Origin: Sphaerochaeta sp.
GTDB lineage: Bacteria > Spirochaetota > Spirochaetia > Sphaerochaetales > Sphaerochaetaceae
NCBI GenBank assembly: GCA_016342655.1
Contig: JAEINL010000031.1
Coordinates: 1-42,648, forward strand
Direction: 5' to 3'
Length of the DNA: 42,648 bases
In this document: positions 4,335 through 39,432 of the stretch, piece after piece
How the letters are laid out: every line of letters begins with the position of its first letter
Numbering within the stretch: position 1 is the first letter of the stretch
Notes under the pieces: model-generated
The model's input: the letters and a program-made list of their open reading frames with translations, nothing else
Database searches by the model: none
What the model was told of the DNA's origin: nothing
Program-made: the position numbers and the translations under genes

Positions 4335-4445
4335 ATTACCGAGCGAGTGCCGGGAAAGCAAGGTGAGATACGTGAGCCCCTTGGCTCGGAAAAGGAGGCA
4401 ATGCCTCCTCTTTCCAGGGCTTGCCCTGGGGTATTGCTACCTTTT
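4335..4445 (-). repeat. Dispersed hairpin-array element, copy 1
   Basis: One of four copies in the window. Reading the plus strand it starts ATTACCGAGCGAG and ends near GCTACCTTT. It contains GAGCC-CCTT-GGCTC, then GGAGGC-AAT-GCCTCC inside a longer stem, then CCAGGGC-TT-GCCCTGG and GGTA-TTGC-TACC. It starts 33 bp past the bioY stop codon, so it would be transcribed at the 3' end of bioY mRNA. Confidence 0.85.
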
Positions 4446-4477
4446 ATTGCAGTTCTTTGGTTGCCTTGCAGCCAAAT

Positions 4478-5083
4478 TCATGACGTGCTTGACCCGTTTA
4501 GAAACTCCTTGATCCTAGGGGCAAACATCTGGGCAAGCTGTACGGATACGATGAGCTTGATCGTGTCTCCAATGAGGAAGGGAAGCATGCCTGCCTGGAT
4601 TGCAACTTTCCAGGAGAGTGAACGGTTGTATTTGAGGAAGGGCACACCGACTGCGTAGATTGCAAGGGTAGCTAGGGTCCCGAAGAGGATACACAGATAG
4701 AGATAGGTCCTTTTCTTTCTTTTGCTTTCTGCTGGGTTATCTGCTTGCTTGTCATTTTGGTTGATTTTCTCTTTTTTGGCATAGTTACCTGCAATACCGG
4801 CAAGCAAGGCCGCGGGAAGCAGGCCGAAAAGGAAGCCTCCTGTTGGTCCTAGGAGGATACCCAAACCCCCTCCAGCGGTGAAGACCGGCAGGCCTACAGC
4901 ACCAAGCAGGAGATAAATGGCTACGCTGCCAACTCCTATAGCTGTTCCTCCAAGTAGGGCGGCACTGATCACAAAGAGTGTCTGCAGTGTGATGGGTACG
5001 GGGGGAAGGGGAAAGCGGATGTATGCCCCTACGATTATCAGCGAGGCGAATAGGGCTGTCAGGACGGTTTTTCTTGTATTCAT
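4478..5083 (-). CDS. bioY: Biotin transporter BioY (ECF S component)
   Basis: A 201-residue integral membrane protein with about six hydrophobic segments that binds and imports biotin. The BioY hallmarks are at the N-terminus: FPLPPVPITLQTLFV (about 25-39) and the glycine-rich GLPVFTAGGGLGILLGPTGGF region (65-85). No ATPase or EcfT partner lies nearby, so it must work alone or with a shared ECF module elsewhere. A charged loop around residues 100-125 (KKEKINQNDKQ) is longer than usual. It is divergent from birA with a BirA-like palindrome between them, which predicts repression by biotin-loaded BirA. Confidence 0.93.
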   Translation of the reverse strand: MNTRKTVLTALFASLIIVGAYIRFPLPPVPITLQTLFVISAALLGGTAIGVGSVAIYLLLGAVGLPVFTAGGGLGILLGPTGGFLFGLLPAALLAGIAGNYAKKEKINQNDKQADNPAESKRKKRTYLYLCILFGTLATLAIYAVGVPFLKYNRSLSWKVAIQAGMLPFLIGDTIKLIVSVQLAQMFAPRIKEFLNGSSTS

Positions 5084-5112
5084 AGGGGGAGCCTACCATA
5101 TTGGTTTTTATA

Positions 5113-5149
5113 TTGTAAACTTGAATTTGGTTGACAATTGATCTATAAT
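5113..5149. promoter_or_regulatory. BirA-like operator and birA promoter between bioY and birA
   Basis: TTGTAAAC (5113-5120) and GTTGACAA (5130-5137) are inverted copies with 7 of 8 positions matching, like the half-sites of known bio operators but with a 9-nt spacer, shorter than the roughly 14-16 nt in enterobacteria. The candidate birA promoter TTGAAT (5121-5126), 17 nt, TATAAT (5144-5149) sits across the right half-site, so binding would block birA itself. The -10 ends 6 nt before the birA ATG. Confidence 0.55.
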
Positions 5150-5155
5150 CCCTGC

Positions 5156-6130
5156 ATGAATACCTCCCTATCCGTGCTCTCCTATCTGAGCCGCCATCAA
5201 GATACGTATGTTTCGGGGCAGCAGCTTGCCTCCGAGTTCGGGGTCAGCCGTAGTGCCATCTGGAAAGCCATTGAAAGCCTTCGTGACGAGGGCCATCTCA
5301 TCGATGCCGTTACCAACCGTGGTTATTCGCTTGTACAGCAAGAATCACTGTTGGATAAGGCGAAACTTGAGAAGATGTTGCCTCAAGTTCCCATACACCT
5401 CTTCGATACCATAGACTCGACCAATCGGTATGCAAAACAACTGGTAAGTGAGGGGTGCACTTCCCCAACACTGGTTCTTGCACACAGCCAAAGCGGGGGG
5501 AGGGGGCGCCTTGGGCGGGAATTCTCCAGCCCCAAGGGCGGCATCTACTTCAGCTTGATCTTGGCTCCCCCCTCTTCAGTTTCATTGGCCTCCCTCATTA
5601 CGTGCGCAGCAGCAGTTGCCACTGCTAGGGCCATCGAAGAGGTCTGTTCGATATCTTGTGGTATCAAATGGGTGAATGACCTTTTCCTTGACGGCCGCAA
5701 GGTAGGGGGCATCCTTACAGAAGGGGTCCTGAATGTGGAAAGTGGGACGCTTTCATCCGTGGTGGTGGGAATTGGCATCAACTTTTCCACACCCCAACAA
5801 GCCTATCCCCCTTCTCTTCGCCCGATAGTGACCTCTCTCTATGCAAAAAGTTCCCTGGTTCCCGAGGATGTCGATGCATCTTCTTTAGTGGCCAAACTTG
5901 TTACTACCCTTATAGGGTATTCCAACACCTTGTCTGAGCGCGCTTTCCTTCCTGAATACCGCTCACGTTCCATCGTCTTGGGCAAGAATATACTCATCAG
6001 TTCTCAGAAGAATCAACGCAAAGCCTTGGCAATTGCTATAGATGAGGAAGCCCATCTGGTGGTGGAGACAGAGGATGGGAAGAGGGAAATCCTATCCAGC
6101 GGGGAAGTCAGCATCGGCCTTGATGCATGA
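5156..6130 (+). CDS. birA: Bifunctional biotin-[acetyl-CoA-carboxylase] ligase / biotin operon repressor
   Basis: The 324-aa protein activates biotin with ATP and attaches it to carrier proteins; it also has the repressor arm. An N-terminal winged helix-turn-helix spans about 5-60 (QQLASEFGVSRSAIWKAIESL), followed by the ligase domain with GGRGRLGR at 114-121 and KWVND at 171-175, and a small C-terminal domain from about 280. I start at ATG 5156 rather than the in-frame TTG 5138, which falls inside the promoter. No Shine-Dalgarno sequence is visible; TATAAT ends 6 nt upstream, so the mRNA may be leaderless. The next gene, argS, starts 49 nt downstream. Confidence 0.93.
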   Translation: MNTSLSVLSYLSRHQDTYVSGQQLASEFGVSRSAIWKAIESLRDEGHLIDAVTNRGYSLVQQESLLDKAKLEKMLPQVPIHLFDTIDSTNRYAKQLVSEGCTSPTLVLAHSQSGGRGRLGREFSSPKGGIYFSLILAPPSSVSLASLITCAAAVATARAIEEVCSISCGIKWVNDLFLDGRKVGGILTEGVLNVESGTLSSVVVGIGINFSTPQQAYPPSLRPIVTSLYAKSSLVPEDVDASSLVAKLVTTLIGYSNTLSERAFLPEYRSRSIVLGKNILISSQKNQRKALAIAIDEEAHLVVETEDGKREILSSGEVSIGLDA

Positions 6131-6179
6131 GTTTGGTTTGTAGTATAGTTTCATCTACTTGTACGAAAAGGAAAACATA

Positions 6180-7943
6180 ATGCTTGATACGATACGTCAG
6201 TCTTGGAAAGCCCTTGTAGAGAAAGAGCTTGCCTCATATGCCCTTACAATTCTTGGAAAAGAGGTCAAGTTGCCTGAATTGGCTGTTCAGACCCCTCCCA
6301 AGCCCGAGTTGGGAGACCTAGCTTTTCCCTTGTTTGCCTATGCGAAAATCCTTAGGACAGCACCCCCTATGCTCGCTGCCTCCCTTAAGGAACGCATAGA
6401 GAAGATCTCTGATCGTCCCCTAGGCGATCTGCTTATTGCAGGTCCCTATCTGAATATCCGCATTGATATGGCAGCATTAGCTACTACGCTTTCTGCCGCT
6501 ATTGTGGCAAAAGGCTCTCTTTATGGAGAGAACAAGAGCCTTGCTGATAAGCGCATCACCATTGAGTTCAGCTGCCCCAACACCAACAAACCCCTACACT
6601 TGGGGCACATGCGTAATGACAGCATCGGGGAGAGCCTCAGTGCCATCATGAAGGCCAATGGCGCAACAGTGCGCAAAGTCAACCTGATCAATAACCGTGG
6701 TGTGCACATCTGTAAGTCCATGCTTGCCTATCAGAAATTTGGCAAGGGGGAGACCCCAGAATCAACAGGCATGAAAGGTGACCACTTTGTGGGCAAATAC
6801 TATGTGAAGTTTGCCGCTTGGGCAAAGGAAGAGCCCAGTGCCGAACAGCAGGCCCAGGAGATGCTGCAGAGGTGGGAAGAAGATGACCCTGTAGTGATGG
6901 ATCTCTGGCACAAGATGAACAAGTGGACCCTCGACGGCCTCGCCGAGAGCTATGAGAAGATGGGAATCAGCTTTGATCACTATTACTATGAGTCTGAAAC
7001 CTACAAGTATGGCAAGGACGAGATCCTCAAAGGCTTGGACAAAGGAGTCTTCTACCGCGAGGAGGATGGCTCTGTATGGGTCGACCTGGAGGATATCAAG
7101 CTGGACAAGAAAGTGCTGCTCCGTAAGGATGGTACAAGCCTATACATGACCCAGGATGTGGGAACCGCCATCATGCGGCACAAGGACTGGCCGTTTGACT
7201 CCCTTATCTATGTGGTGGCGAGTGAGCAGCAGTACCATTTTAAGGTGCTCTTTCATGTCCTTGCCCTTCTTGGCTACACCTGGGCAGAGGATCTTCACCA
7301 TCTTTCCTATGGCATGGTCAACCTGCCTGATGGAAAGATGAAGAGCCGTGAAGGTACTGTCGTTGATGCTGATGAGCTTGTCCAGCAGCTGACGGACTTG
7401 GCTGCCGGTGAGATTCGCTCAAAACAGCGTGAGGAACAGGTAGGTGATGTCACCAAGACCTCCTCTTCGATTGCCTTGGGTGCTCTGAACTACTATCTGT
7501 TGCAGGTCAATCCCCTGAAGGATATGATTTTCAACCCGACGGAGTCCATCTCATTCAATGGGAATACCGGACCCTACCTGCAGTATATGGGGGCTAGAAT
7601 TTCCAGCATGCTGGGCAGGTATGAGAGTGAGGGTGGCGATAGGGCCAAACTCTCCTTTGACAGTAGCCTACTCACCCTCAGTGATGAACGTGAGCTCATC
7701 AAGCAGATCGGCCTCTACCCAGAGGTGGTGGCTCGGGCGGGAGCGGAGTTGGATCCTTCACTGCTGTGCTCCTTCCTCTATGAGCTTTCCCGTCTGTTCT
7801 CCCGCTGGTACCATGACAACCCGGTTCTTAAGGCAGGAAGCGAAGAGCTTGTCCGTGCAAGGATTGAGCTTTCAGCTATGGTAATGCAGGTCCTTAAGAA
7901 TGCTTTTGCCTTGGTTGGGATTCCCTTCTTACACTCGATGTGA
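6180..7943 (+). CDS. argS: Arginyl-tRNA synthetase
   Basis: A class I synthetase of 587 aa that charges tRNA-Arg. The N-terminal Add-1 domain (about 1-105) is followed by the HIGH-type motif HLGH at 140-143, and a KMKSR loop begins at residue 386 in the place of KMSKS. The C-terminal anticodon-binding domain ends with the family-typical LVGIPFLHSM. ATG 6180 is chosen because AAGGAA lies 6 nt before it; the in-frame TTG at 6159 does not have one. The gene ends only 2 nt from the end of the convergent tetR gene, so no terminator fits between them. Confidence 0.96.
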   Translation: MLDTIRQSWKALVEKELASYALTILGKEVKLPELAVQTPPKPELGDLAFPLFAYAKILRTAPPMLAASLKERIEKISDRPLGDLLIAGPYLNIRIDMAALATTLSAAIVAKGSLYGENKSLADKRITIEFSCPNTNKPLHLGHMRNDSIGESLSAIMKANGATVRKVNLINNRGVHICKSMLAYQKFGKGETPESTGMKGDHFVGKYYVKFAAWAKEEPSAEQQAQEMLQRWEEDDPVVMDLWHKMNKWTLDGLAESYEKMGISFDHYYYESETYKYGKDEILKGLDKGVFYREEDGSVWVDLEDIKLDKKVLLRKDGTSLYMTQDVGTAIMRHKDWPFDSLIYVVASEQQYHFKVLFHVLALLGYTWAEDLHHLSYGMVNLPDGKMKSREGTVVDADELVQQLTDLAAGEIRSKQREEQVGDVTKTSSSIALGALNYYLLQVNPLKDMIFNPTESISFNGNTGPYLQYMGARISSMLGRYESEGGDRAKLSFDSSLLTLSDERELIKQIGLYPEVVARAGAELDPSLLCSFLYELSRLFSRWYHDNPVLKAGSEELVRARIELSAMVMQVLKNAFALVGIPFLHSM

Positions 7944-7945
7944 TC

Positions 7946-8521
7946 TTATTGCCCCTTATAGAGGGCACAAAAGCTGTTGATGAACCTCTCCTCTCTCCAA
8001 GGCAAATCGGTCTCTATGCCGATGAGAATCTTGGAGAGGAGGTTCTGGACAGTTGCGCTGAACATCTCAATCGCCAGATCCAAATCCTCCACCTCCAGTC
8101 TTCCAGTCTCAGAAAGCTCCTCGATAAGGACCCTGCTCTGTGCGTCAAACATTTCAGAAAGGGTTCTAGCAATGGAAGATGCTTCAGCGTGGATAAGTTT
8201 CTCTGCCTCAATGATGCTGTAGAACCACGACAGGGGCTCTGTTGTGTAGACATCATGATAGTGGTCCATTGCCCTGAAGAGGACATCACTTGCACTTCCT
8301 GTGAAAGCGATGGTTATCTGTTGGGCATAGGCAAGCTTCCTGCAGTAGGCAAACAGTGATGCGACCATCTCCTCCCGATTGGCAAAATGGTGAAAGACTG
8401 AAGCTTTGGAGATGCTGTTTGACTGTGCAAGCATTGCGATGGAGACGTTGTCTATTCCTTTTTTTGAACCCAGCTCCAAGAGGGAGAGTATGAGATTTTG
8501 TTTGGTTGATGTCGTATTCAT
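7946..8521 (-). CDS. TetR/AcrR-family transcriptional regulator
   Basis: A 191-aa repressor with an N-terminal helix-turn-helix: NVSIAMLAQSNSISKASVFHHFANREEMVASLF, about residues 21-53. The C-terminal ligand domain is not informative. I take ATG 8521 as the start; the frame is open to a TTG at 8578, but the extra 19 codons would cover the promoter and an 18-bp palindrome. No Shine-Dalgarno sequence precedes ATG 8521. It probably represses itself through that palindrome. The nearest divergent gene is rplU, an unlikely target, so the regulon is probably elsewhere. Confidence 0.88.
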   Translation of the reverse strand: MNTTSTKQNLILSLLELGSKKGIDNVSIAMLAQSNSISKASVFHHFANREEMVASLFAYCRKLAYAQQITIAFTGSASDVLFRAMDHYHDVYTTEPLSWFYSIIEAEKLIHAEASSIARTLSEMFDAQSRVLIEELSETGRLEVEDLDLAIEMFSATVQNLLSKILIGIETDLPWREERFINSFCALYKGQ

Positions 8522-8526
8522 ACCCA

Positions 8527-8556
8527 ATACTAACCTATCGGTCGGTAGGTTTTCAA
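8527..8556 (-). promoter_or_regulatory. tetR promoter with autoregulatory operator in the spacer
   Basis: On the minus strand TTGAAA (8556-8551) and TAGTAT (8532-8527) are separated by exactly 18 bp. That spacer, 8533-8550, is itself a palindrome, ACCTATCGGTCGGTAGGT on the plus strand, matching its complement at 14 of 18 positions, with the CGGTCGG core typical of TetR-family sites. The -10 ends 5 nt before the ATG. A repressor here would block RNA polymerase directly. Confidence 0.7.
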
Positions 8557-8598
8557 CTCCTTTTTCTTTGTTTTTCAATCATTTATTGAGAAAAAGCC

Positions 8599-8628
8599 TT
8601 GAAGTTCCTTTCACATGCATGCTATAAG
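8599..8628 (+). promoter_or_regulatory. Promoter of the rplU operon
   Basis: TTGAAG (8599-8604), 18 nt, then TATAAG (8623-8628) with a TGC extended -10. The predicted start leaves a leader of about 30 nt before rplU, too short for an elaborate autoregulatory structure. Confidence 0.55.
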
Positions 8629-8665
8629 AATAGGGCACAAACTAAACGTAAGGATGCAAATCGAC

Positions 8666-8980
8666 ATGTATGCACTTGTAGAAATTCTCGGAAAACAGTA
8701 CAAAGCAGTCGAAGGCCAGACCGTTCGGGTTGATTATATCAGCCAGAAAGAGGAAGGCTCTTCACTCGAGTACGAAACAGTTCTCGCCATCGTGGATGAG
8801 GACAATGCAAAGTTTGGCACCCCCTATGTAGCAGATGCTATGGTCAAGGCAACCCTCAATGGAAGCCTTAAGGGTGACAAGATTAGGGTGTACAAAAAGA
8901 AACGCCGCAAGGGATACACTAGGACCCAGGGTCATAGACAGAAGTATTCACTGATCACCATCGATCAGATTATCGCGTAA
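8666..8980 (+). CDS. rplU: 50S ribosomal protein L21
   Basis: A 104-aa L21 protein that binds 23S rRNA near L20. It starts with the family-typical MYALVEILGKQYKAVEG and has the basic C-terminal part KKKRRKGYTRTQGHRQKYSLITI. The frame is open upstream to 8615, and ATG 8654 (MQID-) is in frame, but the homologous start and the normal length favour 8666. AAGG lies 12 nt before it, a long spacing. It is the first gene of an operon running through rpmA, obg, nadD, yqeK, a lipoprotein and rsfS. Confidence 0.95.
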   Translation: MYALVEILGKQYKAVEGQTVRVDYISQKEEGSSLEYETVLAIVDEDNAKFGTPYVADAMVKATLNGSLKGDKIRVYKKKRRKGYTRTQGHRQKYSLITIDQIIA

Positions 8981-8992
8981 GGGGGTAGGGAT

Positions 8993-9244
8993 ATGGCACA
9001 TAAGAAAGGTGGCGGTAGCACCCGCAATGGTCGTGATTCCAACTCACAGCGCCTTGGCGTCAAACGTTTCGGTGGACAGCTGGTGAAAGCCGGTGAGATC
9101 ATCGTGCGTCAGCATGGGACCAAATTCCATCCTGGTGAAAATGTAGGATTGGGTTCTGACTATACCATTTTTGCAAAGGCTGCAGGTACTGTATTGTTCC
9201 ACGTAAGGAAGAATCGTAAGTACATCAGCATCGTAACTGAGTAG
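8993..9244 (+). CDS. rpmA: 50S ribosomal protein L27
   Basis: An 83-aa L27 beginning [20 protein letters not shown], whose N-terminal tail reaches the peptidyl-transferase centre. There is no N-terminal extension for Prp cleavage, unlike in Firmicutes, and correspondingly no Prp protease gene between rplU and rpmA. It follows rplU by 12 nt with a GGGGGTAGGG-type ribosome binding site and precedes obg by 44 nt. Confidence 0.97.
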
Positions 9245-9276
9245 TTTTACCTACCGATGTTGGCCATATGGCCTAA

Positions 9277-10371
<1,095 letters not shown>

Positions 10372-10380
10372 GGGGAATAG

Positions 10381-15861: not shown

Positions 15862-16872
15862 CTATTTCTGCCTGATGGTCTTTCCGTCCTTGATGAGCAC
15901 AGCTGCACTGTCTTGCAGTGACTGAGGGATAGTATATCCAAGCTTCTTAGCAGTATCAAGGTTAAACCAAAGTTCAAATTTGGTAGGATCGGTGATATAG
16001 ACGGTTCCGATGGTTCCTGCCTTCTCTCCCTTGATTACCCTTCCCACAACTTTACCAGTTTCATAGCCGATGCTGTAGTAGTCAAAACCCCATGCTATCA
16101 TGACGTTCAGACCGTCAACACCGGAGGGGTCGGCACTCATCAGTGGTTTGCCTGCTTTGGTAGTGACATCATCAACTGAAGCGAGAGCGCTGATGACAGC
16201 GTTGTCGGTTGCAATGTAGATGGCGTCAACACGGCCAATGATGGCCTGGGTAGCCATCTTCACCTCACTGGAGTTGCTGATAGCGGCGGCGACAAAGTCA
16301 ATGCCAAGTTTCTCACAGGCAGCCTTGGCCATTTCCATCAGGATTACTCCGTTGGCCTCTCCTGAAGCATAGATGTTTCCGACTGACTTGGCTCCTGTAA
16401 GGTCTACCAAAAGCTTGATCTGCTCTTCGACAGGGTTCTTGTCCGAAACTCCGGCGATGGTATCAGATACGAGGCCAGCTTCTGAGGAATCGGTTACTGC
16501 ACTGAATACCACTGGGGTTGAGGAGTTTGAGAACACCTGTGCAAGGGCCTGTGCTGTGGGGGTGGCGATACCGACAGCCACATCTACCTTGTCGCTCTTG
16601 AACTTTTGGGCGATGGAGGATGAGGTTGAGATGTCACCATTGGCATTCTGCAGGTCGAAGGTTACCTTCAGGTCAGTGGTCGCAAGGTAATCCATGATAC
16701 CCTTTTCTGCAGCATCCAAGGCTGGGTGTGCAACAATCTTAGATATCCCAATTTTGTATGTCTTTGGCCCTGATTCTGCGGGTGTTTCAGAAACACCTGC
16801 TGCGAAGGCAAAAGAGACGGTAGTAAGGATCAGAACTAGCATAAGTACTGTAGTGCGAAGTGTGAATTTCAT
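15862..16872 (-). CDS. ABC transporter substrate-binding protein 1 (PF04392 type, TrpX-like)
   Basis: A 336-aa exported binding protein; a signal peptide (1-24, ending SFAFAAG) is followed by two Rossmann-like lobes. The family text KIVAHPALDAAEKGIMDYL, FDLQNANGD and IAQKFKSDKVDVAVGIATPTAQAL is at about 45-115. Relatives bind tryptophan or other small aromatic/amino ligands, but the ligand cannot be read here. It is the promoter-proximal gene of the importer operon, with a strong promoter and a nested palindrome upstream and an attenuator downstream. A paralogue lies 0.9 kb upstream of its start. Confidence 0.92.
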   Translation of the reverse strand: MKFTLRTTVLMLVLILTTVSFAFAAGVSETPAESGPKTYKIGISKIVAHPALDAAEKGIMDYLATTDLKVTFDLQNANGDISTSSSIAQKFKSDKVDVAVGIATPTAQALAQVFSNSSTPVVFSAVTDSSEAGLVSDTIAGVSDKNPVEEQIKLLVDLTGAKSVGNIYASGEANGVILMEMAKAACEKLGIDFVAAAISNSSEVKMATQAIIGRVDAIYIATDNAVISALASVDDVTTKAGKPLMSADPSGVDGLNVMIAWGFDYYSIGYETGKVVGRVIKGEKAGTIGTVYITDPTKFELWFNLDTAKKLGYTIPQSLQDSAAVLIKDGKTIRQK

Positions 16873-16910
16873 GTAAGTATCCTCCAGATAATGAGAAGTG
16901 CGTTTGCGAA

Positions 16911-16984
16911 ACTATAGCCTTATTTTTGTCTTTTGTAAATCGTATTATGCATATAAATGAATATTAATTCATAAGATATGCATA
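16911..16984 (-). promoter_or_regulatory. Importer promoter and nested inverted repeats upstream
   Basis: On the minus strand TTTACA (16939-16934), 17 nt, TATAGT (16916-16911) make a good promoter. Seven bp upstream of the -35 lies a symmetrical array: TATGCATA (16946-16953), ATGAAT-ATTA-ATTCAT (16957-16972), TATGCATA (16977-16984). Each TATGCATA is itself a palindrome and the inner pair is a second one. The position, just upstream of -35, suits an activator site or a curved UP-type element. Confidence 0.6.
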
Positions 16985-17064
16985 TGATTTGAAAAATATG
17001 AGTAATTGCTTGCGAACCAGTCACAACCTGGAAGGTTACAGTGAAAAAAGGGAATAGAATGAGG

Positions 17065-17097
17065 AAAGTTGAGAGACTGGCAAAAGAGCTCAACTTT
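17065..17097. other. 9-bp inverted repeat
   Basis: AAAGTTGAG (17065-17073) and CTCAACTTT (17089-17097) with a 15-nt loop, between the importer promoter region and repeat copy 2. No T-tract. The rest of 16985-17137 shows nothing else I can support. Confidence 0.3.
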
Positions 17098-17137
17098 CAA
17101 AATGTATGACCAATACCATGCTATCGCATAGTTATTC

Positions 17138-17285
17138 CCCAACGAAGCGAGAGTAGCGGAAGCATGCTTCCATTACCGAGCGAGTGGCGGGAAAGCAAGG
17201 TGAGATACCCCGCCCCTTGGGGCGGAAAAGGAGGCAACGCCTCCTCTTTCCAGGGCTTGCCCTGGGGTATTGATACCTTTCATTT
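17138..17285 (-). repeat. Dispersed hairpin-array element, copy 2 (long form)
   Basis: This copy has the longer left part beginning CCAACGAAGCGAGAGTAGCG, then a GGAAGC-AT-GCTTCC palindrome, then the common core from 17172. The first core hairpin is CCGCCCC-TT-GGGGCGG, differing from copies 1 and 4 in both arms yet still paired. The right end (TCATTTG) supplies the TGA stop codon of the small membrane-protein gene. Confidence 0.87.
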
Positions 17286-17597
17286 GTAGTCTCGTCTTTT
17301 TTCTTTTCTTCTTGCCAGCGAAAGGCCGCCAAAGCCACTTATGATGGCAATGTAAAAGCCAAAGTCATAGAGCCAACCAGAGTTGTTCTGCTCGTAAATG
17401 CGGACAAATGGGTCGAATATCCCAACTATGAGAGATATGGGCGCAATCCATCCATGCCAGATACCCATGAAGAAACCAGCTGGCTTGTCCTCGGTTGCAA
17501 GGAGTGTCCCTGGCAGACAAGCGGTCATCAAAAGTGTTAGTGCGAGCACTAGGGTAACGATCATCAAGATTTTCTTAATATGTTTTGGGTAGTCCAT
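17280..17597 (-). CDS. Small membrane protein or lipoprotein, conserved hypothetical
   Basis: A 105-aa protein with an N-terminal hydrophobic segment (10-26) ending MTAC (Cys27, a loose lipobox), and two further hydrophobic stretches around GIWHGWIAPISLIVGIF and DFGFYIAIISGFGGL. The pattern GFFMGIWHGWIAP...RIYEQNNSGWLYDFGF is one I recognise from short hypothetical proteins in many bacteria; no function is assigned. AGGAG precedes the ATG. Its last codons and stop abut repeat copy 2. It lies downstream of the second binding-protein gene by 143 nt. Confidence 0.72.
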   Translation of the reverse strand: MDYPKHIKKILMIVTLVLALTLLMTACLPGTLLATEDKPAGFFMGIWHGWIAPISLIVGIFDPFVRIYEQNNSGWLYDFGFYIAIISGFGGLSLARRKEKRRDYK

Positions 17598-17740
17598 ATG
17601 AGTCTCCTATACGGTACACTAAGGATACGGGATAGGAGATCTTCTTACAAGGTTGAGGAACATCCCCTTGCTTACAGGTTCTCTGTATCCCAAGGGATTT
17701 ATGGTGTAGTGATACGTCGTGTCACCTATTGGTGCATATA

Positions 17741-18736
17741 TCAAGGGCGAAGCATCTTCTTCCCATCCTTGAAAATTTCTGCTGCTGAGTTTAACAGCCT
17801 CTCATCGATGGTGATGCCTAGCTTCTTTGCCACATCAAGGTTGAACCAGAGTTCGAACTGGGTGGGGTCATCAAAGAAGACAGCCCCGATGTCCTTGGGA
17901 TCTTCACCGTTGAGAATCCTTTCCACTACCTTGCCCGTCTCAACACCCACTGTGTAGTAGTTGAAGCCCCAACTCATCAGGAAGTCGATGTTCTCACTGC
18001 TGGTGGTGTCGGTATTGAAGAGTGGGATACCAGCCTTGCTGCATACATCACTGACTCCTGCTATGGCGCTGACGACAGTATTGTCGATGGCGATGTACAT
18101 GGCGTCGATACGGCCTACGATTGACTGAGCCGCCATCTTCACCTCACTGGAGTTGCTCACCGCTGCTGCTATAAACTCGATACCACGCTCTTTGCAGATG
18201 TCTCTGGCCAGTTCCATCATGGCGACACCATTGGCTTCGCTGCTGGTGTAGATCATTCCAAGTTTTTTGGCCTTGGTTATAGTGAAGAAGGTATCCAACT
18301 GTAACTCTACAGGATTGAGGTCTGAGATGCCTGCAATATTGGTTGCTTCTGTCCTGTCGTAGTTCGCTACCAAGCCTGCTGCCAGGGGGTCGGTTATGGC
18401 ACCGAAGACTACCGGGATATCGGTAATTACCTGGGCTAGGGCTTGGGCTGGCGGGGTCGCAATGCCTATGACCAGGTCTTTCTTATCGCTTTTGAATTTC
18501 TGGGCTATAGCGATTGCAGTTCCAATTTCTGCATTGCAGTTCTGCAGGTCAAAGATTGCCTTGATGTCAGTGCTGTTGAGGTAGTCCTGGATACCCTGCT
18601 CGATGGCATCGAGGGCGGGGTGGGCTACCATCTTGGAGATGCCGATGGCGACACTGTCTTGTTGTACCTCAGATGCCGGCTGGGCAAACAAGAAAGTAGG
18701 AATAAGCAAGAGGGCTAGGATTATACATTTTTTCAT
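17741..18736 (-). CDS. ABC transporter substrate-binding protein 2 (PF04392 type)
   Basis: A 331-aa exported binding protein, clearly a paralogue of the one at 15862-16872 (same blocks KMVAHPALDAIEQGIQDYL, FDLQN, IAQKFKSDK, IATPPAQALAQV). The signal peptide is 1-20 (ALLLIPTFLFAQ). The start is ATG 18736, with GGAG 8 nt upstream; the longer frame to 18847 has no ribosome binding site. There is no second permease or ATPase, so it probably delivers a different ligand to, or competes for, the same importer. A weak promoter TTGCGT-17-TATAGT can be read upstream. Confidence 0.9.
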   Translation of the reverse strand: MKKCIILALLLIPTFLFAQPASEVQQDSVAIGISKMVAHPALDAIEQGIQDYLNSTDIKAIFDLQNCNAEIGTAIAIAQKFKSDKKDLVIGIATPPAQALAQVITDIPVVFGAITDPLAAGLVANYDRTEATNIAGISDLNPVELQLDTFFTITKAKKLGMIYTSSEANGVAMMELARDICKERGIEFIAAAVSNSSEVKMAAQSIVGRIDAMYIAIDNTVVSAIAGVSDVCSKAGIPLFNTDTTSSENIDFLMSWGFNYYTVGVETGKVVERILNGEDPKDIGAVFFDDPTQFELWFNLDVAKKLGITIDERLLNSAAEIFKDGKKMLRP

Positions 18737-18917
18737 GGACTCTCTCCTTGTGATGGTGTTACTATATATAGAAACTAACCGGAACGCAAGTATCTTTGCA
18801 TAGAAACATGAAAAAAACTTTCTCTTTTTCTTCAAAATCCTCTTCAACCTTGTCTAATTTTGCTTCTTGTATCCCTCTGTTGAAACCTTTCACAATCCTA
18901 AGGATTGCCCGACTCTG

Positions 18918-19030
18918 ATTACCGAGCGAGTGCCGGGAAAGCAAGGTGAGATACGTGAGCCCCTTGGGGCGGAAAAGGAGGCAACGCCTCCTCTTTCCAG
19001 GGCTTGCCCTGGGGTATTGATACCTTTCAT
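18918..19030 (-). repeat. Dispersed hairpin-array element, copy 3
   Basis: Core only, from ATTACCGAG to ACCTTTCATT. Its first hairpin combines the left arm of copies 1 and 4 with the right arm of copy 2, and still folds as GCCCC-TT-GGGGC. It is about 127 bp past the stop of the acidic-protein gene and in the same orientation as the other copies. Copies 2 and 3 thus bracket the second binding-protein gene and the small membrane-protein gene as direct repeats. Confidence 0.87.
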
Positions 19031-19042
19031 TATCTGAAACGG

Positions 19043-32500: not shown

Positions 32501-32591
32501 GTGTAATCTCCTTATCCCCTAGTATACTAAGAATAAAGCTATCCGTACAGAGGAATCCTTTGCTAATAGAAGAGTATCGTATTATTGGATT

Positions 32592-32782: not shown

Positions 32783-32845
32783 GGAATGTTGGCTTATAAC
32801 GAATGTCTCTGGTATTTCCTTCCTCTGTAAGAGGGAGTTGAAATC

Positions 32846-34207
32846 CTACACATACCCCTGGGCTATCATGGCATCGGATACCTTCAGGAATCCGGCAATG
32901 TTGGCACCATCGACAAAGTTATTCTTCGTGCTGTACTTGTCGGCAGCCTGGCTGATGTTGCTGTAGATGTTCTTCATGATGGTTAACAGTTGTGCATCGA
33001 CCTGTTCAGGTGACCACTGCATTCGTTGGCTGTTCTGGGCCATCTCAAGACCGGAGACAGCAACGCCTCCGGCATTGGAAGCTTTGCCAGGGGCCAGAAG
33101 GACTCCCCCTTCCATCAGGATCTCTTCTGCCTGTAGGGTTGTAGGCATGTTAGCCCCTTCACCTACCAGCTGTATCTTGTTTGCGACAAGGTTCTTCGCA
33201 TCCTCAGCGTTGATCTCATTCTGAGTTGCACAAGGGAATGCATAGTCAGCCTTCACCTCCCAGATAGGATTCGTGGAGGCCGAGCCATTGTGAGGGATGT
33301 AGGTAGCCCCCTTGTACTTCTGGGCATACTCTGCAATTCGTCCCCGTCTGACATTTTTCAGTGTTTTAATGTAGGCCAGTTTATCCGCATCGATACCGCT
33401 GGGGTCAATGAGGACTCCGCTTGAGTCACTCATGGTCAGTACCTTGGAACCCATTTTCAATAGCTTTTCTGCAGTGTATTGGGCTACGTTTCCGCTTCCA
33501 CTTATCAGACAGCTTTTGCCATCAAGGCTCTTGCCTTCAGCTCCCAACATGGCAGCAGAGAGGTAGACCAAGCCGTAGCCTGTAGCCTCTGGGCGGATAT
33601 AAGATCCTCCGAAGGAGGGGCCCTTGCCAGTGAGGATTCCTACACTCTTGTTATGGATGCGTTTGTACTGACCGTACATGTACCCGATCTCTCGTCCACC
33701 TACACCGATGTCCCCCGCTGGTACGTCGGTGTCTTCACCAATATGTCTGCCCAATTCAAGCATGAGACTCTGACAGAAGCGCATGACCTCGCCATCACTC
33801 TTGCCCTTGGGGTTGAAATCGCTTCCTCCCTTGCCACCACCAAGAGAGAGGCCGGTGAGACTGTTCTTGAAAGTCTGCTCAAAGGCAAGGAACTTCAGAA
33901 TTGAGAGATTGACCGAGGGGTGTAAACGCATTCCCCCCTTATAGGGACCTAAGGCACTGTTCATCTGTATCCTGAAGCCGCGGTTTAGTTGCAGTAGGCC
34001 ATCATCATCAAACCAGGGGATGCGGAACATGATGACACGTTCTGGTTCCACCATACGGTCAAGTACTTTGTGGTAGAGTATCTGTGGGATGTCTTCGACA
34101 AGCTTGTCAACAGATCCTAGGAATGAAGTGACAGCTTGGATAAATTCTGGTTGGTTCGGGTCGAGTTGGATCACACGGTCCATCACTCGTTGGGTTGCAT
34201 CATGCAT
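32846..34207 (-). CDS. gdhA: NADP-type glutamate dehydrogenase
   Basis: A 453-aa hexameric GDH that makes glutamate from 2-oxoglutarate and ammonia. Typical blocks: GGMRLHPSVNLSILKFLAFEQTFKNSLT (about 92-119, with the catalytic Lys in LGGGKGGSDF at 121-130), VPAGDIGVGGREIGYM (about 162-177) and the Rossmann start ISGSGNVAQYTAEKL (about 235-249). Length and order fit the small bacterial GdhA. AAGGAG lies 10 nt before the ATG. It stands alone with its own flanking non-coding DNA. Confidence 0.96.
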   Translation of the reverse strand: MHDATQRVMDRVIQLDPNQPEFIQAVTSFLGSVDKLVEDIPQILYHKVLDRMVEPERVIMFRIPWFDDDGLLQLNRGFRIQMNSALGPYKGGMRLHPSVNLSILKFLAFEQTFKNSLTGLSLGGGKGGSDFNPKGKSDGEVMRFCQSLMLELGRHIGEDTDVPAGDIGVGGREIGYMYGQYKRIHNKSVGILTGKGPSFGGSYIRPEATGYGLVYLSAAMLGAEGKSLDGKSCLISGSGNVAQYTAEKLLKMGSKVLTMSDSSGVLIDPSGIDADKLAYIKTLKNVRRGRIAEYAQKYKGATYIPHNGSASTNPIWEVKADYAFPCATQNEINAEDAKNLVANKIQLVGEGANMPTTLQAEEILMEGGVLLAPGKASNAGGVAVSGLEMAQNSQRMQWSPEQVDAQLLTIMKNIYSNISQAADKYSTKNNFVDGANIAGFLKVSDAMIAQGYV

Positions 34208-34410
34208 GTAGGTAACTCCTTAGCTTCTATGTATAATTATGCAATAAACTGTATATAAGAATATAGAAACCTTTGTATTTGGTAAAGCGCTTAGGGAAAG
34301 ATGAAAATCCAGAATGATAATTGCGGTATGCGTAGAAACTAACTGATATGAATCCATATTGAGCAGGTACGCAAAGCCGAGGGTTGTGGTTGCTTCATGC
34401 ATAAAGAAAT
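34208..34410. other. Intergenic stretch upstream of gdhA
   Basis: AT-rich DNA with no gene-like ORF. It must carry the gdhA promoter (minus strand). I see no clear palindrome or riboswitch. Confidence 0.4.
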
Positions 34411-34456
34411 AAAAAAACAGGAATGGGAGAAAAAAATACTTTTTTTTCTCCCATTC
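34411..34456 (-). terminator. Strong terminator of the acs-mtaD-mtnA operon
   Basis: A 16-bp perfect stem (34421-34436 with 34441-34456, GAATGGGAG plus seven A/T pairs) with a TACT loop, followed on the minus strand by CTGTTTTTTT. It is 124 bp past the mtnA stop. Confidence 0.85.
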
Positions 34457-34579
34457 TTCACTCCTAGCCCTTCCCTGATGTCCTGAAAGCCTAGCAAAGA
34501 GGAAATGCTGTCAAGCAATTTTTCAATATGGGCTCTTTTTTAGGGAAATCTCTTGGGTTTCTCAACCTAAGACTTTCTC

Positions 34580-35629
34580 TTATAGCGTCTCACCCTTTTT
34601 CAGGCGTTCAATATTCTCCTTGTAGGGAGGGCGGATAATGCCCTTTTCTGTGATGATGCCGGTGATGTTCTGGTGAGGTGTCACATCGAAGGCAGGATTG
34701 AATACCTGCATATCCAGGGGGGCGACCTGGGTATCACCTACAAAGATTACCTCTTTCTTGTCCCTCTCCTCAATGGGGATGAGCGATCCATCAGCGAGGT
34801 CGAAGTCGATGGTGGACAGGGGAACCACTGAGTAGAAGGGTACCCCATACTCTTTGCAGATGACCGAAAGGGCGAAGGTGCCAAGTTTGTTGGCAACATC
34901 ACCATTGGCGGCTACCCGGTCTCCTCCGAGGATTACCAGATCTATCTTGCCATCACGGATCAGGGTAGCCGCAGCACTATCAGGAATCAGGGCAGAGGGA
35001 ATCTTTGCCTCCGTCAGTTCCCAGGCTGTCAGGCGGGCCCCTTGGAAGCGTGGTCGGGTCTCATCAGCATAGACGAAGATGTCCTTGCCAGCATAGAACG
35101 CTTCCTTGATGACACCCAAAGCTGTTCCCCATCCTGCCGTGGCAAGGGCTCCTGTATTACAGTGGGTAAGGATGGTGGCCCCCTGTGGAACGACCTGGTT
35201 ACCAATTTTGCCCATCTGCTTGTTGGTTCGGATATCTTCAGCCCTTATTTCATCAGCTTCGGCTTTGAGGGTGGAAAGAATCATATCTGTAGGCTCTTTC
35301 TCTACCTTCAGGAAGGTCTTCCACATGCGACTGATCGCCCATGCAAGGTTTACTGCAGTGGGGCGGCTCTTGGAGAGTAAATCACACGCCTTCTTGAGCT
35401 CTGTGCTGAAATCCTCCTGCTTTGCATACTGAACAGCTGCCAGGTAGACGCCATAGGCAGCTGTTGCCCCGATTGCCGGGGCTCCACGGACAACCATGTC
35501 CCTGATGGCAAACTCCACATCTTCATAGGTCTTGCAGGTATAGTACGTATAGGTGGCGGGCAAGACCCGCTGGTCTATCAAGTAGAGAGCGTTCTCTCTA
35601 AATTCAAGGGTAACGAACGATTCATCCAT
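34580..35629 (-). CDS. mtnA: S-methyl-5-thioribose-1-phosphate isomerase
   Basis: A 349-aa MtnA/eIF2B-like isomerase turning methylthioribose-1-phosphate into the ribulose form in methionine salvage. Typical text: RDMVVRGAPAIGATAAYGVYLA (about 43-64), THCNTGALATAGWGTALGVI (about 154-173, active-site Cys), ADETRPRFQGARLTAWEL and the catalytic Asp in ILGGDRVAANGDVANKLGT. It lies directly downstream of the MTA/SAH deaminase gene, a pairing found in MTA and 5'-deoxyadenosine salvage shunts. AAAGGAG is 9 nt upstream. Other mtn genes are not in the window. Confidence 0.95.
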   Translation of the reverse strand: MDESFVTLEFRENALYLIDQRVLPATYTYYTCKTYEDVEFAIRDMVVRGAPAIGATAAYGVYLAAVQYAKQEDFSTELKKACDLLSKSRPTAVNLAWAISRMWKTFLKVEKEPTDMILSTLKAEADEIRAEDIRTNKQMGKIGNQVVPQGATILTHCNTGALATAGWGTALGVIKEAFYAGKDIFVYADETRPRFQGARLTAWELTEAKIPSALIPDSAAATLIRDGKIDLVILGGDRVAANGDVANKLGTFALSVICKEYGVPFYSVVPLSTIDFDLADGSLIPIEERDKKEVIFVGDTQVAPLDMQVFNPAFDVTPHQNITGIITEKGIIRPPYKENIERLKKGETL

Positions 35630-35674
35630 GGTAAGCTTCTCCTTTTACTGTCTAGGTGCAAATGTTAGTGTATT

Positions 35675-36964
35675 CTATCTGTTTCGTATTGCTTCCCAGC
35701 TGGAGTTGACCTCCCTCTGGATCTCCTGTTGGTCCAGGCCAAGGACTTTACGCTTTTCCATGACCATTTTTCCCTGACAAAAGAGCGTATCAACATCGGA
35801 AGCCTGGGCAGCATAGACCAAGGCGCTGAATGGGTCGTTAAGTGGGGTCAGATGAGCCTTGTTGAGGTCCAGAAGGAGTATGTCCGCTTCCTTTCCTTCT
35901 TCTAGGGTTCCAATTTTCTTATCCAGTCCCAAAGCCTTGGCTCCATTGATTGTCGCCATCTTGAGGGCCTCAAAGGGCCGGAGGGTACTCATGTGTCCGG
36001 TGAAAACCGTACTAAGAAGCGAAGCAATATGTATTTCCTCAAAGAGATTCTGGTTGTTGTTGCTACTTGAGCCGTCACAGCCTATGGCCACATTGATACC
36101 ATTCTTTAGATATGCTCCGATGGGGGCGACCCCGCTGGCAAGCTTGCAGTTGCTGCTGGGGTTGTGTACTACCGAGGCATCCATACCTTTCAGAAGCTCA
36201 ATTTCACTGGGGGTGAGGTGGACACAATGGGCAAGTATGGAAGGGACGTCTTTCAGGGCCCCAATGGAATCAAGATAGTGCAAAGGGGGCATCTGGTGCT
36301 CAGCGATACAATCATCAACCTCTTTTCTGGTCTCACTGAGGTGGGTGTGCATATTCCTATGGTTTGCTTTGGCCCAGTCATGCCCATACTGGTAGGTCTC
36401 TTTGGTGCAGGTGTAGATGGCATGGGGAGCAATGCCGAGGGTCAGGCGGGAATTGGATGCCTCTATCGCCGAATCTATCTGATGCTCCCTTTCCTTGATC
36501 CTTATCTTGGTGGATGCCAGATCCCCAAAAAGGGATAGGCCCAGGTTGGCTCGGATACCCACTTCATTGACCGCTCGGGCTGTAGCCTCTGCAAAGAAGT
36601 ACATGTCATTGAATAGGGTAATGCCGCTTTGGATCAGTTCAATGACACCTAAACGGGAAGAGGCGAGCACATCAGAAGAGGTTAGCTTGTCCTCGATGGG
36701 GAATATCTCTGCAAGCCAGGCTTGCAGATTGGGTTCCTTGTCCTTGTAGTTGCGCATGAACTGCATGCCCAGATGTGTGTGGGCATTTACCAAGGCCGGC
36801 ATAGCAAGCATGCCTGTTGCATCGATGGTCTTGTCTGGGATGAAGCTTGCAGGTTTTTTCCCGACAAACGAGATACTCGTTCCTTCAATGCCTATATCGC
36901 CAAAGAAGAACACCCCTTCTTGCTTCATCGGGATGATCATGGCGTTGGAAATCAGTGTTTTCAT
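35675..36964 (-). CDS. mtaD: 5-methylthioadenosine/S-adenosylhomocysteine deaminase
   Basis: A 429-aa metal-dependent amidohydrolase that deaminates MTA/SAH (and often 5'-deoxyadenosine) to the inosine form. Zinc ligands: H62 and H64 in NAHTHLGMQ, His in HTHLSETRKE and the Asp in AIGCDGSSSNNN. The pairing with mtnA supports the MTA/SAH substrate over other amino-hydrolase substrates. No Shine-Dalgarno sequence precedes the ATG; TAGTAT ends 6 nt before it, with GTGACG 17 nt further up. The acyl-CoA synthetase gene ends 23 nt upstream, so these three genes form an operon. Confidence 0.92.
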   Translation of the reverse strand: MKTLISNAMIIPMKQEGVFFFGDIGIEGTSISFVGKKPASFIPDKTIDATGMLAMPALVNAHTHLGMQFMRNYKDKEPNLQAWLAEIFPIEDKLTSSDVLASSRLGVIELIQSGITLFNDMYFFAEATARAVNEVGIRANLGLSLFGDLASTKIRIKEREHQIDSAIEASNSRLTLGIAPHAIYTCTKETYQYGHDWAKANHRNMHTHLSETRKEVDDCIAEHQMPPLHYLDSIGALKDVPSILAHCVHLTPSEIELLKGMDASVVHNPSSNCKLASGVAPIGAYLKNGINVAIGCDGSSSNNNQNLFEEIHIASLLSTVFTGHMSTLRPFEALKMATINGAKALGLDKKIGTLEEGKEADILLLDLNKAHLTPLNDPFSALVYAAQASDVDTLFCQGKMVMEKRKVLGLDQQEIQREVNSSWEAIRNR

Positions 36965-36987
36965 AGGGCTATACTATCATAACCCTC

Positions 36988-38697
36988 TTAGGCCGTCACC
37001 CTGTTACGTTTGATCTTTTTTGTGCTTGTCGTTTCCATGGGCTGGAGAAGAATGGTCAGCTTTTCAATTTTCTTATACCCTAGGAGCGTCTGGTTGACCT
37101 CCTTGATAATCCTTTCGAGGTCTTCTTTAGGATCTACTTGCTGATTTGCATAATACTCCATGTTTGGATAGATGACAGCTTCAATCAGTTCAGCGTGGCT
37201 GTTCTTGTGTTTTTTGTATCCTCGGATGAGCACCTGATCAACCTGGGCATAGAGTTGGAACATGTCCTCGATCTCTTCGGGGTACACATTCTTGCCCCCT
37301 TCAGTGATGATGAGGTTCTTTGCCCTTCCCTTAAGGTAGAGGTAGTTCTCCTTGTCCAGATACCCCAAGTCTCCAGTTTTCAGATAGCCATCCTCGTCAA
37401 ACAGCTCTCTGGTATGCTCTTCGTCATTCCAGTAACCGCTGGTGATGTTCGGTCCCTTGACCAGAATCTCTCCTATGCCATTGGAATCGGTGTTGCCGAT
37501 TTTCATCTCCACCAAGGGGAATACCATCCCCACAGATTCAATCTTGAAATGACTTATTGGATTGAGCGTTAGGATCGGGCTCGTTTCGGTAAGCCCGTAG
37601 CCTTGGATGAAGTCCAGACCGAGCTGCTGGTAGTGTTTGAATACCTGAGGTGAAAGCGGGCCTGCCCCGCAGATAAGGATCCTGTTCTGGTCCAAACCTA
37701 CTTTACTTAACAGCAGTTTGTTGAAAGTGCTTCTGAAAATGTTTGCCTTGAGGTGCTTCTTCGTGAATCCATTGATGGTCATCATGAGCCTCACCAGAGC
37801 GTAGGTGATAAGGCCCTTCTTTCGGACCTGTTTCATCATGCCAGCAAGGATTTTGTTGTAGAGCAGGGGGATACCCATGAAGATGGTGACCTGTCCTTGG
37901 CTCAGGTCTGCTATCATGCGCGATACCGCTATCTCCTGGCCAAAGACACACTCAGCACCGAATTTGAGTGTCTCCAGCAGAACTGCCGTACAACAGTAGG
38001 AGTGGTGCAGGGGAAGCAGGGCATACAGCACATCCGTCTCATCCAGGCTGAGGAAGATTCCATCACAGGCTTGGTAGACATCACTGACAATGTTGGTATG
38101 GGTGAGCTTTACACCTTTTTCATTTCCTGTTGTCCCACTGGTAAAGAGGATAGCAGCAACATCTTCACAGTTGCTCCTATACATCGGGTATTCTTTGGCA
38201 GCCTCTATGCTCTCTATAGAGGGACAGGTAGAACTCTTTCCGAGAAGGGTGGCCATCCCCTTCAATGTCTTGAACCAAGGGTTTCCTTGGTCAAGAGCCT
38301 CCACCACATTCTTGTCTCCAAATACGAAGGAGGCTCCACAGAATGTGCTGAGATCCTCTACGCGGCTTGTGGGCATCTGGTTGTCCAAGGGGACGACAAT
38401 AGCCCCTGCATGCAACACAGCAAGGTAGGCTATAGCCCAGTTGGGACTGTTCTTACCGTTGATGATGACACGATCTCCCGGAGCAACCCCCTGTTCCTGG
38501 AGGTAGGAGCTGACACGGACCATCGCTTTTTGTACTTCTTCGTAGGTAAGACTCTTTCTCTCAGGCTTGAAAGAGGTGAAGCAAGGGCGGTGGGGAAATT
38601 TTTCTATGGTGATGGAAAACATTTCTATGATTGTAGGCCACTGTCCTGTAAACAGTGTTCCCCGTACTTGATCAAGTTCTTCCCAAGAGTGGTTCAT
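36988..38697 (-). CDS. Long-chain acyl-CoA synthetase (AMP-forming)
   Basis: A 569-aa ANL-superfamily enzyme that activates fatty acids through an acyl-AMP. The AMP-binding motif ILFTSGTTGNEKGVKLTH, the A5 motif GYGLTETSPI, and the A7/A8 motifs YLKTGDLG and KNLIITEGGKNVYPEEIE are intact; the C-terminal Lys is in STKKIKRN. The ATG at 38697 (MNHSWEELDQ) has GGGGAG 8 nt upstream; the in-frame ATG 9 codons earlier does not. It heads the operon with mtaD and mtnA, an unusual mix. The exact chain length is not readable. Confidence 0.9.
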   Translation of the reverse strand: MNHSWEELDQVRGTLFTGQWPTIIEMFSITIEKFPHRPCFTSFKPERKSLTYEEVQKAMVRVSSYLQEQGVAPGDRVIINGKNSPNWAIAYLAVLHAGAIVVPLDNQMPTSRVEDLSTFCGASFVFGDKNVVEALDQGNPWFKTLKGMATLLGKSSTCPSIESIEAAKEYPMYRSNCEDVAAILFTSGTTGNEKGVKLTHTNIVSDVYQACDGIFLSLDETDVLYALLPLHHSYCCTAVLLETLKFGAECVFGQEIAVSRMIADLSQGQVTIFMGIPLLYNKILAGMMKQVRKKGLITYALVRLMMTINGFTKKHLKANIFRSTFNKLLLSKVGLDQNRILICGAGPLSPQVFKHYQQLGLDFIQGYGLTETSPILTLNPISHFKIESVGMVFPLVEMKIGNTDSNGIGEILVKGPNITSGYWNDEEHTRELFDEDGYLKTGDLGYLDKENYLYLKGRAKNLIITEGGKNVYPEEIEDMFQLYAQVDQVLIRGYKKHKNSHAELIEAVIYPNMEYYANQQVDPKEDLERIIKEVNQTLLGYKKIEKLTILLQPMETTSTKKIKRNRVTA

Positions 38698-38905
38698 GGT
38701 TGGTTCTCCCCATTGAAATCGCATGATAAGAACATACTATATGTCCTACCATAGGATAGTAAAGGAGATTTTTACAGAAAGAGCAAAAATTGTCAATCTT
38801 TAAATAATATCTTGTCTTAATAGGGTTTAAACTCTTAGTAGATTTCTACTATTGAGGATGAACCAAGAAACAATGGGGAGAAACACTTTTTTGAGGTGAA
38901 GAGTT

Positions 38906-39432
38906 TTGGATTTGGATGATATGCTGGAAAAAATTGCAAATTTGAGGGAATATTTGAAAACCAACCAAGGTGAAACCGACCTTACGGAAATGCTTGCTAA
39001 CCTGCAACCTATTCTTTCAGAGGAGAGGTATGTCTACTGTTTCCGTGACTATCAGCATCTTATGGATTTTCCTGTCTGGGCCTCCATTCACCAACGAAGC
39101 GAGAGTAGCGGAAGCATTACCATGGTTCCGTTACCGAGCAAGTGCCGGGAAAGCAAGGTGAGATACGTGAGCCCCTTGGCTCGGGAAAGGAGGCAACGCC
39201 TCCTCTTTCCAGGGCTTGCCCTGGGGTATTGATACCTTTCATTTGTGAGTAAGAGGGGAGGTCCCTGATTATGACTCAACAAGAAGCAGACCGACAAGGT
39301 TTTTCCTATGAGGGGATTTGGAGCCGAATTACCTTGTCAGTGCATTCGTTCCTACAGGCCGTTGGGCTGACAGCACACGTTTTCACTCTTCTGGCTGATG
39401 CAGCAATACGTCCTAACATGGTCGCAGGCTAG
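38906..39432 (+). pseudogene. ACT_3-type domain gene interrupted by a hairpin-array element
   Basis: The first part (38906-39090, TTG start behind GAGGTG) encodes an N-terminus ending RYVYCFRDYQHLMDFPVWASIH. Repeat copy 4 then intervenes. After it, in another frame from about 39253, the protein continues: EGRSLIMTQQEADRQG, then SRITLSVHSFLQAVGLTAHVF and ADAAIRPNMVAG, matching the rest of an ACT_3/DUF2241-type domain. A TAG at 39430-39432 stands where Tyr is expected (VAG-Y-YHD), followed by YHDLFLY. So the gene has an insertion, a frame change and a nonsense codon. The apparent 108-codon ORF 38906-39232 is half repeat sequence. Confidence 0.82.
39091..39245 (-). repeat. Dispersed hairpin-array element, copy 4 (long form, inside a gene)
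   Basis: Starts CCAACGAAGCGAGAGTAGCG like copy 2, then GGAAGCATTACCATGGTTCC in the place of the GGAAGC-AT-GCTTCC palindrome, then the common core from 39131 ending ACCTTTCATTTG. The first core hairpin is GAGCC-CCTT-GGCTC. The surrounding coding sequence joins up almost without loss when this segment is removed, giving an element length near 155 bp. Confidence 0.87.

Follow-up and report, generated by a model that had tools for sequence, protein, structure and literature searches.

A folded, dispersed element of Sphaerochaeta and related spirochaetes with the features of a non-autonomous single-strand transposon

Four copies of a dispersed element lie in the 42,648-nt stretch of Sphaerochaeta sp. 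DNA analysed here (the window; contig JAEINL010000031.1 of assembly GCA_016342655.1), all on the + strand, and sequence comparison together with folding establishes these repeats as real. We propose that the element, which ranges in size from about 86 to 213 nt, is a non-autonomous single-strand transposon mobilized in trans by an enzyme that is most likely of the HUH/Y1 type, and we put the probability of this reading at roughly two in three. As read from the sequence, the element has precise ends, a target on one side only, matching unoccupied sites, no inverted repeats, an orientation bias related to GC skew, and conserved folding. A one-sided target, a lack of inverted repeats and a bias towards the G-rich strand together form the signature of single-strand (IS200/IS605-like) transposition. 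A preliminary description of the window had seen the structure, but missed the mobile nature of the element, its precise ends and its target.

Insertion sites and ends

Full copies stand directly after a target resembling TT(C/T/G)ATT. Across 111 full-length copies, mostly from Sphaerochaetaceae and gathered as full-length model matches, which favours an intact ATT, the left flank holds T at position -3 in 85 and at -2 in 105, and C, T, G or A at -1 in 60, 25, 23 and 3, respectively, followed by ATT in all; the right flank carries no signal. The right end of the element itself reads CTTTCATT. Where the end cores alone were required, the left triplet was ATT in 102 of 102 copies, and the right triplet in 99 of 102. 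Terminal inverted repeats are lacking (10 of 30 positions match in an inverted-repeat test).

Among 152 queries built from joined flanks, seven insertions were matched by an unoccupied site that is in register at the junction, where the triplet is ATT in six and GTT in one. Five of these alignments are gapless over 121-143 nt, another over 81 nt, and in the last the only gap lies clear of the junction; a further two joined-flank matches (L151, L034) align with one or two gaps. As the unoccupied sites are in register, insertion adds the element and nothing else visible, save the ambiguous ATT. Recent activity is indicated by nine identical copies at different places among the 57 full copies compared. 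A separate locus, L117, has an element copy beside or inside an IS200 copy, and two other IS200 loci (L106, L096) represent the matching unoccupied site.

Context and orientation were counted in a 792-kb sample of ten contigs (nine fetched whole or largely, plus the window), picked from contigs in hit lists and scanned regardless of content; copy density in this sample is possibly biased, orientation should not be. It holds 36 copies, comprising 28 complete, four short forms, three other left-truncated copies and one right-truncated copy. Twelve of the 36 insertions fall inside open frames of at least 200 codons, compared with 421 of 600 TTBATT sites and 506 of 600 random positions; insertions in long frames are thus rarer than the distribution of TTBATT sites would give (p = 1.2e-5).

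Orientation and replication

Positive GC skew generally marks the leading strand. In the 792-kb sample, 30 of 36 copies lie on the positive-skew (G-rich) strand, against 783 of 1452 TTBATT sites (p = 5e-4). The corresponding count is 100 of 145 in a wider set of usable copies, in which loci partly overlap and the p-value is optimistic, and 12 of 16 in four other Sphaerochaeta genomes (G001, G012, G017 and G019); a coarse skew map of G001 resolves roughly two arms. Gene orientation in the sample is correlated with skew (r = 0.48), and the genes nearest to the copies are of mixed orientation relative to them. The bias would fit insertion into the lagging-strand template, as given for IS608 and ISDra2 in passages of PMC6006769; one survey of IS605, in the part of PMC7290912 that deals with it, found no such bias (10 of 22).

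Architecture, paired changes and the proposed mechanism

Folding and alignment resolve the element into two back-to-back folded domains. The four dispersed copies first described in the window are borne out, with ends refined to the coordinates below.

4335..4448, + strand: copy 1, short form; preceded by TTTC; its left end is the internal ATT before ACCGAGCGAG
17134..17284, + strand: copy 2, complete long form, 151 nt; preceded by AGTT
17135..17193, + strand: copy 2, left hairpin; TTCCC/GGGAA closing helix, internal loop AACGAAGCGAGAG / CCGAGCGAGTG, variable apical stem
17192..17196, + strand: copy 2, linker AAAGC; putative shared guide for the left target and the right-end TCATT
17197..17279, + strand: copy 2, right domain; closing helix AAGGT-ATACC / GGTAT-ACCTT
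17210..17225, + strand: copy 2, arm 1; CCGCCCC/GGGGCGG
17229..17245, + strand: copy 2, arm 2; AGGAGGC/GCCTCCT
17250..17265, + strand: copy 2, arm 3; CCAGGGC/GCCCTGG
18918..19031, + strand: copy 3, short form; preceded by CTCTG
39086..39243, + strand: copy 4, complete long form, 158 nt; preceded by CTCC

The sequence of copy 2 recurs identically over 147 positions on C136 and C65 of the window's own genome. Two tandem genes for TrpX-like tryptophan ABC transporter binding proteins (NF041285, below cut-off) occupy 15862-18847 of the window, the second being flanked by copies 2 and 3, one on each side.

In the left hairpin, the TTCCC/GGGAA closure is followed by a conserved symmetric internal loop, AACGAAGCGAGAG opposite CCGAGCGAGTG, with a variable apical stem above it. 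The right domain is closed by AAGGT/ACCTT and ATACC/GGTAT around up to three arms. The stems named in the preliminary description are real, except that the GGTAT-TG-ATACC hairpin is an alternative to, and is better explained as part of, a long-range helix that closes the whole right domain by pairing AAGGT...ATACC with GGTAT...ACCTT. The left part of the long copies resembles the start of the core because, within the left hairpin, the two stretches form the opposite strands of a single symmetric internal loop; the suggestion that long copies were built by duplication is not supported, and the short copies instead look like elements using an internal left end.

Beyond this common plan the element varies. 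Minimal forms with two hairpins only occur (L234, L235, L236), and in other copies some arms are missing or extra arms are present. The JAGYPA records L151, L177, L183 and L189 carry extra nested hairpins at the junction positions and attain lengths of up to 213 nt while retaining both closing helices. In L154 and L187 the right domain is a plain hairpin without the three arms, which are therefore dispensable for some copies.

Pairing is preserved when many copies are aligned, as the first description of the arms required. A structure-free MAFFT alignment of 33 copies, selected to be diverse, has 92.5% of its cells paired and shows two-sided change at 21 of 53 pairs, compared with a mean of 7.8 in shuffles and 6 to 10 in slid structures. 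An alignment of 27 model matches, mostly from more distant genomes (13 of 40 matches, being reverse-strand twins, were dropped), gives 95.3% pairing and two-sided change at 39 of 53 pairs, against 7 to 13 for slid structures, although this alignment, having been fitted to the model, is biased in its favour. Between clades, the left closing helix itself varies pairwise, as TTCCC/GGGAA, TTCTC/GAGAA and TTGCC/GGCAA. On these alignments, the conservation of the two folded ends appears to be one of shape. The arm differences among copies within the window's genome, first taken as compensatory, look like exchange between two arm versions, and the convincing compensatory changes are those between species; copy 3, said to mix the two versions and still pair, by eye keeps only a shorter stem, in another register.

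Short forms begin at the internal ATT before CCGAGCGAG. Six such forms in genome G003 keep (T/C)TB before this ATT, as do, with a target-like triplet (TTC, CTG or CTC), three of the four in the sample, two of which are those in the window. Of six copies in G003 that seemed to have a left end only, five proved complete, and the 15 that seemed to have a right end only resolved into one complete copy, six precise short forms, seven imprecise truncations and one at a contig start that was not judged. One of the three left-truncated sample copies directly adjoins the end of a group II intron. At three places, and on either strand, one and the same group II intron end (GTTTGCCCAGC...) immediately follows the arm-2 hairpin on its 3' side (L159:115-1650 (-), L030 and G000:C68:137 (L286)), with a reverse transcriptase/maturase gene seen beside one of them, L159.

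The linker AAAGC can pair with the right end, TCATT, at three of five positions, and with the left target it could do so at the same positions. Among clades, pairing between linker and right end is possible in f1, f11 and f26 alike, and the left target fits in f11, partly in f1, and not in f26. The linker and right end differ in f11, where T immediately precedes ATT in 15 of 15 copies, compared with 25 in the set of 111 (p = 4e-9; for f11 and f26 alike, one row without ATT was dropped from 16). From these sequences it is no more than plausible that a single linker guides both cleavage sites.

Taken as a mechanism, the displayed strand would fold as single-stranded DNA into the left hairpin and the right hairpin domain. 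A trans-acting enzyme, most probably a transposase of the HUH/Y1 type, would cut at ATT at both ends and rejoin the element 3' of TT(C/T/G)ATT in single-stranded DNA exposed on the lagging-strand template at replication forks, the 5-nt linker between the domains serving as guide for both cuts. The enzyme class, the single-stranded substrate and this role of the linker are what we infer.

Occurrence

The window's genome spans 3.9 Mb in 161 contigs. A 20-nt core, allowing up to two mismatches, is found at 135 places in it and a reversed control pattern at none, so the repeats exceed chance by far; the right end, allowing one mismatch, is found at 153. The copies are accordingly not confined to the window, a condition under which the preliminary description would have failed. 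A covariance model extends the structured, covarying element across the class, to 26 of 297 sampled genomes, 13 of 112 genera and eight families, under strict filters by which weak matches may be missed. Within the genus, copy 2 is matched in 10 of 26 genomes (the window's own included) and the right-end sequence in eight of 26. Occurrence is patchy. In a scan of named genomes with the right end, all 67 of the 67 matches listed carry names of Spirochaetes (Sphaerochaeta, Spirochaetales and similar).

Neither plasmids and phages searched with copy 2 nor viral contigs searched with the exact right end gave a match, records near the window possibly being excluded. A literature search returned no paper joining Sphaerochaeta with 'repetitive extragenic palindromic' (REP), and none of the literature naming Sphaerochaeta together with 'interspersed' concerned such repeats, as judged by title. 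None of the four spirochaete names searched for occurs in PMC2817692.

The candidate transposing enzyme

The window's genome encodes a RAYT-like Y1 protein of 270 aa, its gene directly downstream of a DprA-like gene (TIGR00732 at 167 bits, below the cut-off of 191). This protein scores 61 bits against NF047646 (cut-off 80) and matches the TnpA-REP structure 4er8 at E 0.009; the HUH histidine pair and a candidate catalytic tyrosine are invariant in seven aligned RAYT-like sequences, and loci L101, L109, L111, L198 and L199 are likewise RAYT-like. Within the genus, such a protein is present in nine of ten carriers of the element and three of 16 non-carriers (p = 0.0008, relatedness not corrected), the exceptions being one carrier without it, G021 (82% complete), and the non-carriers G005, G016 and, with a partial match, G024. 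At 150 bits or more, a RAYT profile is matched in 10 of 297 genomes, seven of them carriers (p = 1.8e-6, again without correction for relatedness), including G238, in which stops interrupt the gene; hits at any score occur in 10 of 26 carriers and 45 of 271 other genomes. Association of a RAYT-type Y1 protein with the element is seen in two families. On this evidence, the RAYT-like Y1 protein may tentatively, at less than even odds, be named the best candidate for the enzyme in Sphaerochaeta, but not a proven one.

Several observations count against transposition as we have outlined it. Apparently intact RAYT genes are present in G005 and G016, where no copy of the element was found. The RAYT profile has no hit in 16 of 26 carriers, and a search of 19 further carriers for PF01797 detected no match in 13, among them G105, G153 and G128, the last being 99% complete with at least ten copies of the element. 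A search that was not exhaustive found no autonomous copy with both ends and a transposase. In clade f26, 11 of 15 copies have G immediately before ATT, which gives no pairing with the proposed guide G. Because ATT stands at both ends, a 3-bp duplication is indistinguishable from none. Among the sample's four short forms, one follows ACC, which is not a target, and imprecise left truncations without a target affect seven of 78 right ends in G003, compared with one right truncation among 69 left ends (p = 0.07).

With so many carriers lacking a RAYT or Y1 match, the enzyme has either been lost in many hosts or is of another kind, and RAYT was rejected as a necessary enzyme on the same counts. 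Among 74 Y1-containing loci tested, some of which overlap, no copy borders a RAYT gene; copies occur only as neighbours of IS200, in L097 and L117/L119, and in L262, where the distance to a RAYT-profile hit of G085 is about 1.1 kb. The IS200 copies L088, L095 and L097 were considered as parents and set aside: on inspection by eye, two have TTCATT as their terminus and one has a 17-nt stretch in common, but the ends differ.

Alternative explanations

The strongest rival, which we consider possible but distinctly less probable, is that the element is a true REP/BIME-type family that a RAYT (TnpA-REP) of its own mobilizes, which would make it a large but otherwise ordinary product of a REPtron. 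The association with RAYT-like proteins in the genus and their invariant HUH and tyrosine residues favour it, and the two kinds of repeat have much in common: high copy number, a position mostly outside long open reading frames, palindromic sequence, a Y1 protein associated over part of the range, and use as a target by IS110 elements. An IS110-family gene (PF01548, PF02371) lies at L157:5391-6566, separating the two halves of an element interrupted at the apical loop of arm 1, and a similar IS end is found at the same element position at the end of L182; insertion of IS621 in REP elements, a parallel case, is described in parts of PMC11208160. REP, BIME and REPIN repeats, going by the sections of PMC3733652 and PMC8266576 that describe REP features, differ in that the element is not of 20-40 nt, has two unlike hairpins with up to a four-way junction, does not border RAYT genes in the loci tested, and is conserved across families. 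Nor is a tag conserved, GTAG being present in 15 of 33 and three of 27 rows of the two alignments, and CGTC in eight of 33 and four of 27. The CGTC-tagged REPs that PMC3733652, in passages on the subject, reports in Spirochaetes seem to lack a dedicated transposase; these are 20-40 bp long and carry the CGTC that is not conserved here. The frequency of carriers without a RAYT-profile hit also speaks against a REPtron product.

Somewhat less probable again is a bolder version of single-strand transposition, in which a class-wide lineage would use one central linker to guide both cuts, and would be moved solely in trans by a new HUH or other single-strand DNA recombinase that is not a recognizable Y1 protein, its folded arms having a role beyond transposition.

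Covariation could also arise in a dispersed structured RNA, regulatory or trans-acting, from RNA function after or instead of transposition. The arms covary although minimal forms lack them, and G-T mispairs exceed A-C mispairs on the displayed strand (49 against 20, or 31 against 15 without one column, where cells count sequences and not events). An Rfam search of the window, on the other hand, returned no family at the gathering threshold, the best permissive match being sub-threshold at E 0.09; target-specific ends and strand bias need transposition, and neighbouring genes are oriented either way. We regard this explanation as improbable. A comparably low probability attaches to the possibility that the paired changes stem from hairpin template switching (quasi-palindrome correction) and not from structural selection. 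The arms are near-perfect palindromes, and blocks have been exchanged between arm versions within the window's genome; such switching could indeed copy changes between arms. The long-range TTCCC/GGGAA helix changes pairwise too, while the internal loops stay conserved, and the selection on structure suggested in the preliminary description is supported by the covariation.

A retrotransposed RNA resembling a short interspersed nuclear element, copied by reverse transcriptase and leaving 5'-truncated copies, would predict the imprecise left truncations seen in G003. It is very unlikely given that target specificity resides at the left (5') end, that the strand bias follows GC skew, and that the six G003 short forms have precise left ends at (T/C)TBATT. 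A classical miniature inverted-repeat transposable element of a DDE transposase, also short, abundant and devoid of genes, can be dismissed on the lack of terminal inverted repeats, the one-sided target, the strand bias, and the lack of any duplication beyond the ambiguous ATT.

Relation to known systems and implications

IS200/IS605 elements, as characterized in passages of PMC7290912 and PMC6006769, lack inverted repeats, cause no duplication, insert 3' of a tetra- or pentanucleotide, and have end hairpins and a guide at the hairpin base. With PATEs and other non-autonomous IS200/IS605 derivatives, for which IS608 and ISDra2 supply the mechanism, the present element has in common that inverted repeats are lacking, that it inserts 3' of a fixed short motif, that each end carries a hairpin, and that its strand bias is the one expected of lagging-strand insertion. 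It differs in that no parent insertion sequence with its ends was found, and in being class-wide with covariation. In IS608 a guide lies 5' of each hairpin, by the account in part of PMC6006769, whereas here the left hairpin directly adjoins the target and the two hairpins are separated by a single linker.

Structured, mobile and RNA-like elements that also leave solo copies are known as HEARO, associated with IscB and its omega-RNA. Against that comparison, the window gave no Rfam match, and no IscB was found in the 14 genomes searched; RRXRR matches in four of the 14 all fall within frames of 1403-1404 aa that, by their length, are probably Cas9, and this candidate was rejected.

On our best reading, the element works like a non-autonomous single-strand transposon and represents a new REP/PATE-like family, which we do not file as a proven member of either IS200/IS605 or REP. 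The finding raises the question of which enzyme moves the element in genomes where no Y1 protein was detected. REPs are described as species-specific in sequence (PMC6006769, in part), which makes their structure hard to test by covariation. By contrast, one fold that is kept across eight spirochaete families while its sequence changes would make end recognition, the matching of guide and target, and replication-coupled insertion testable by comparison.

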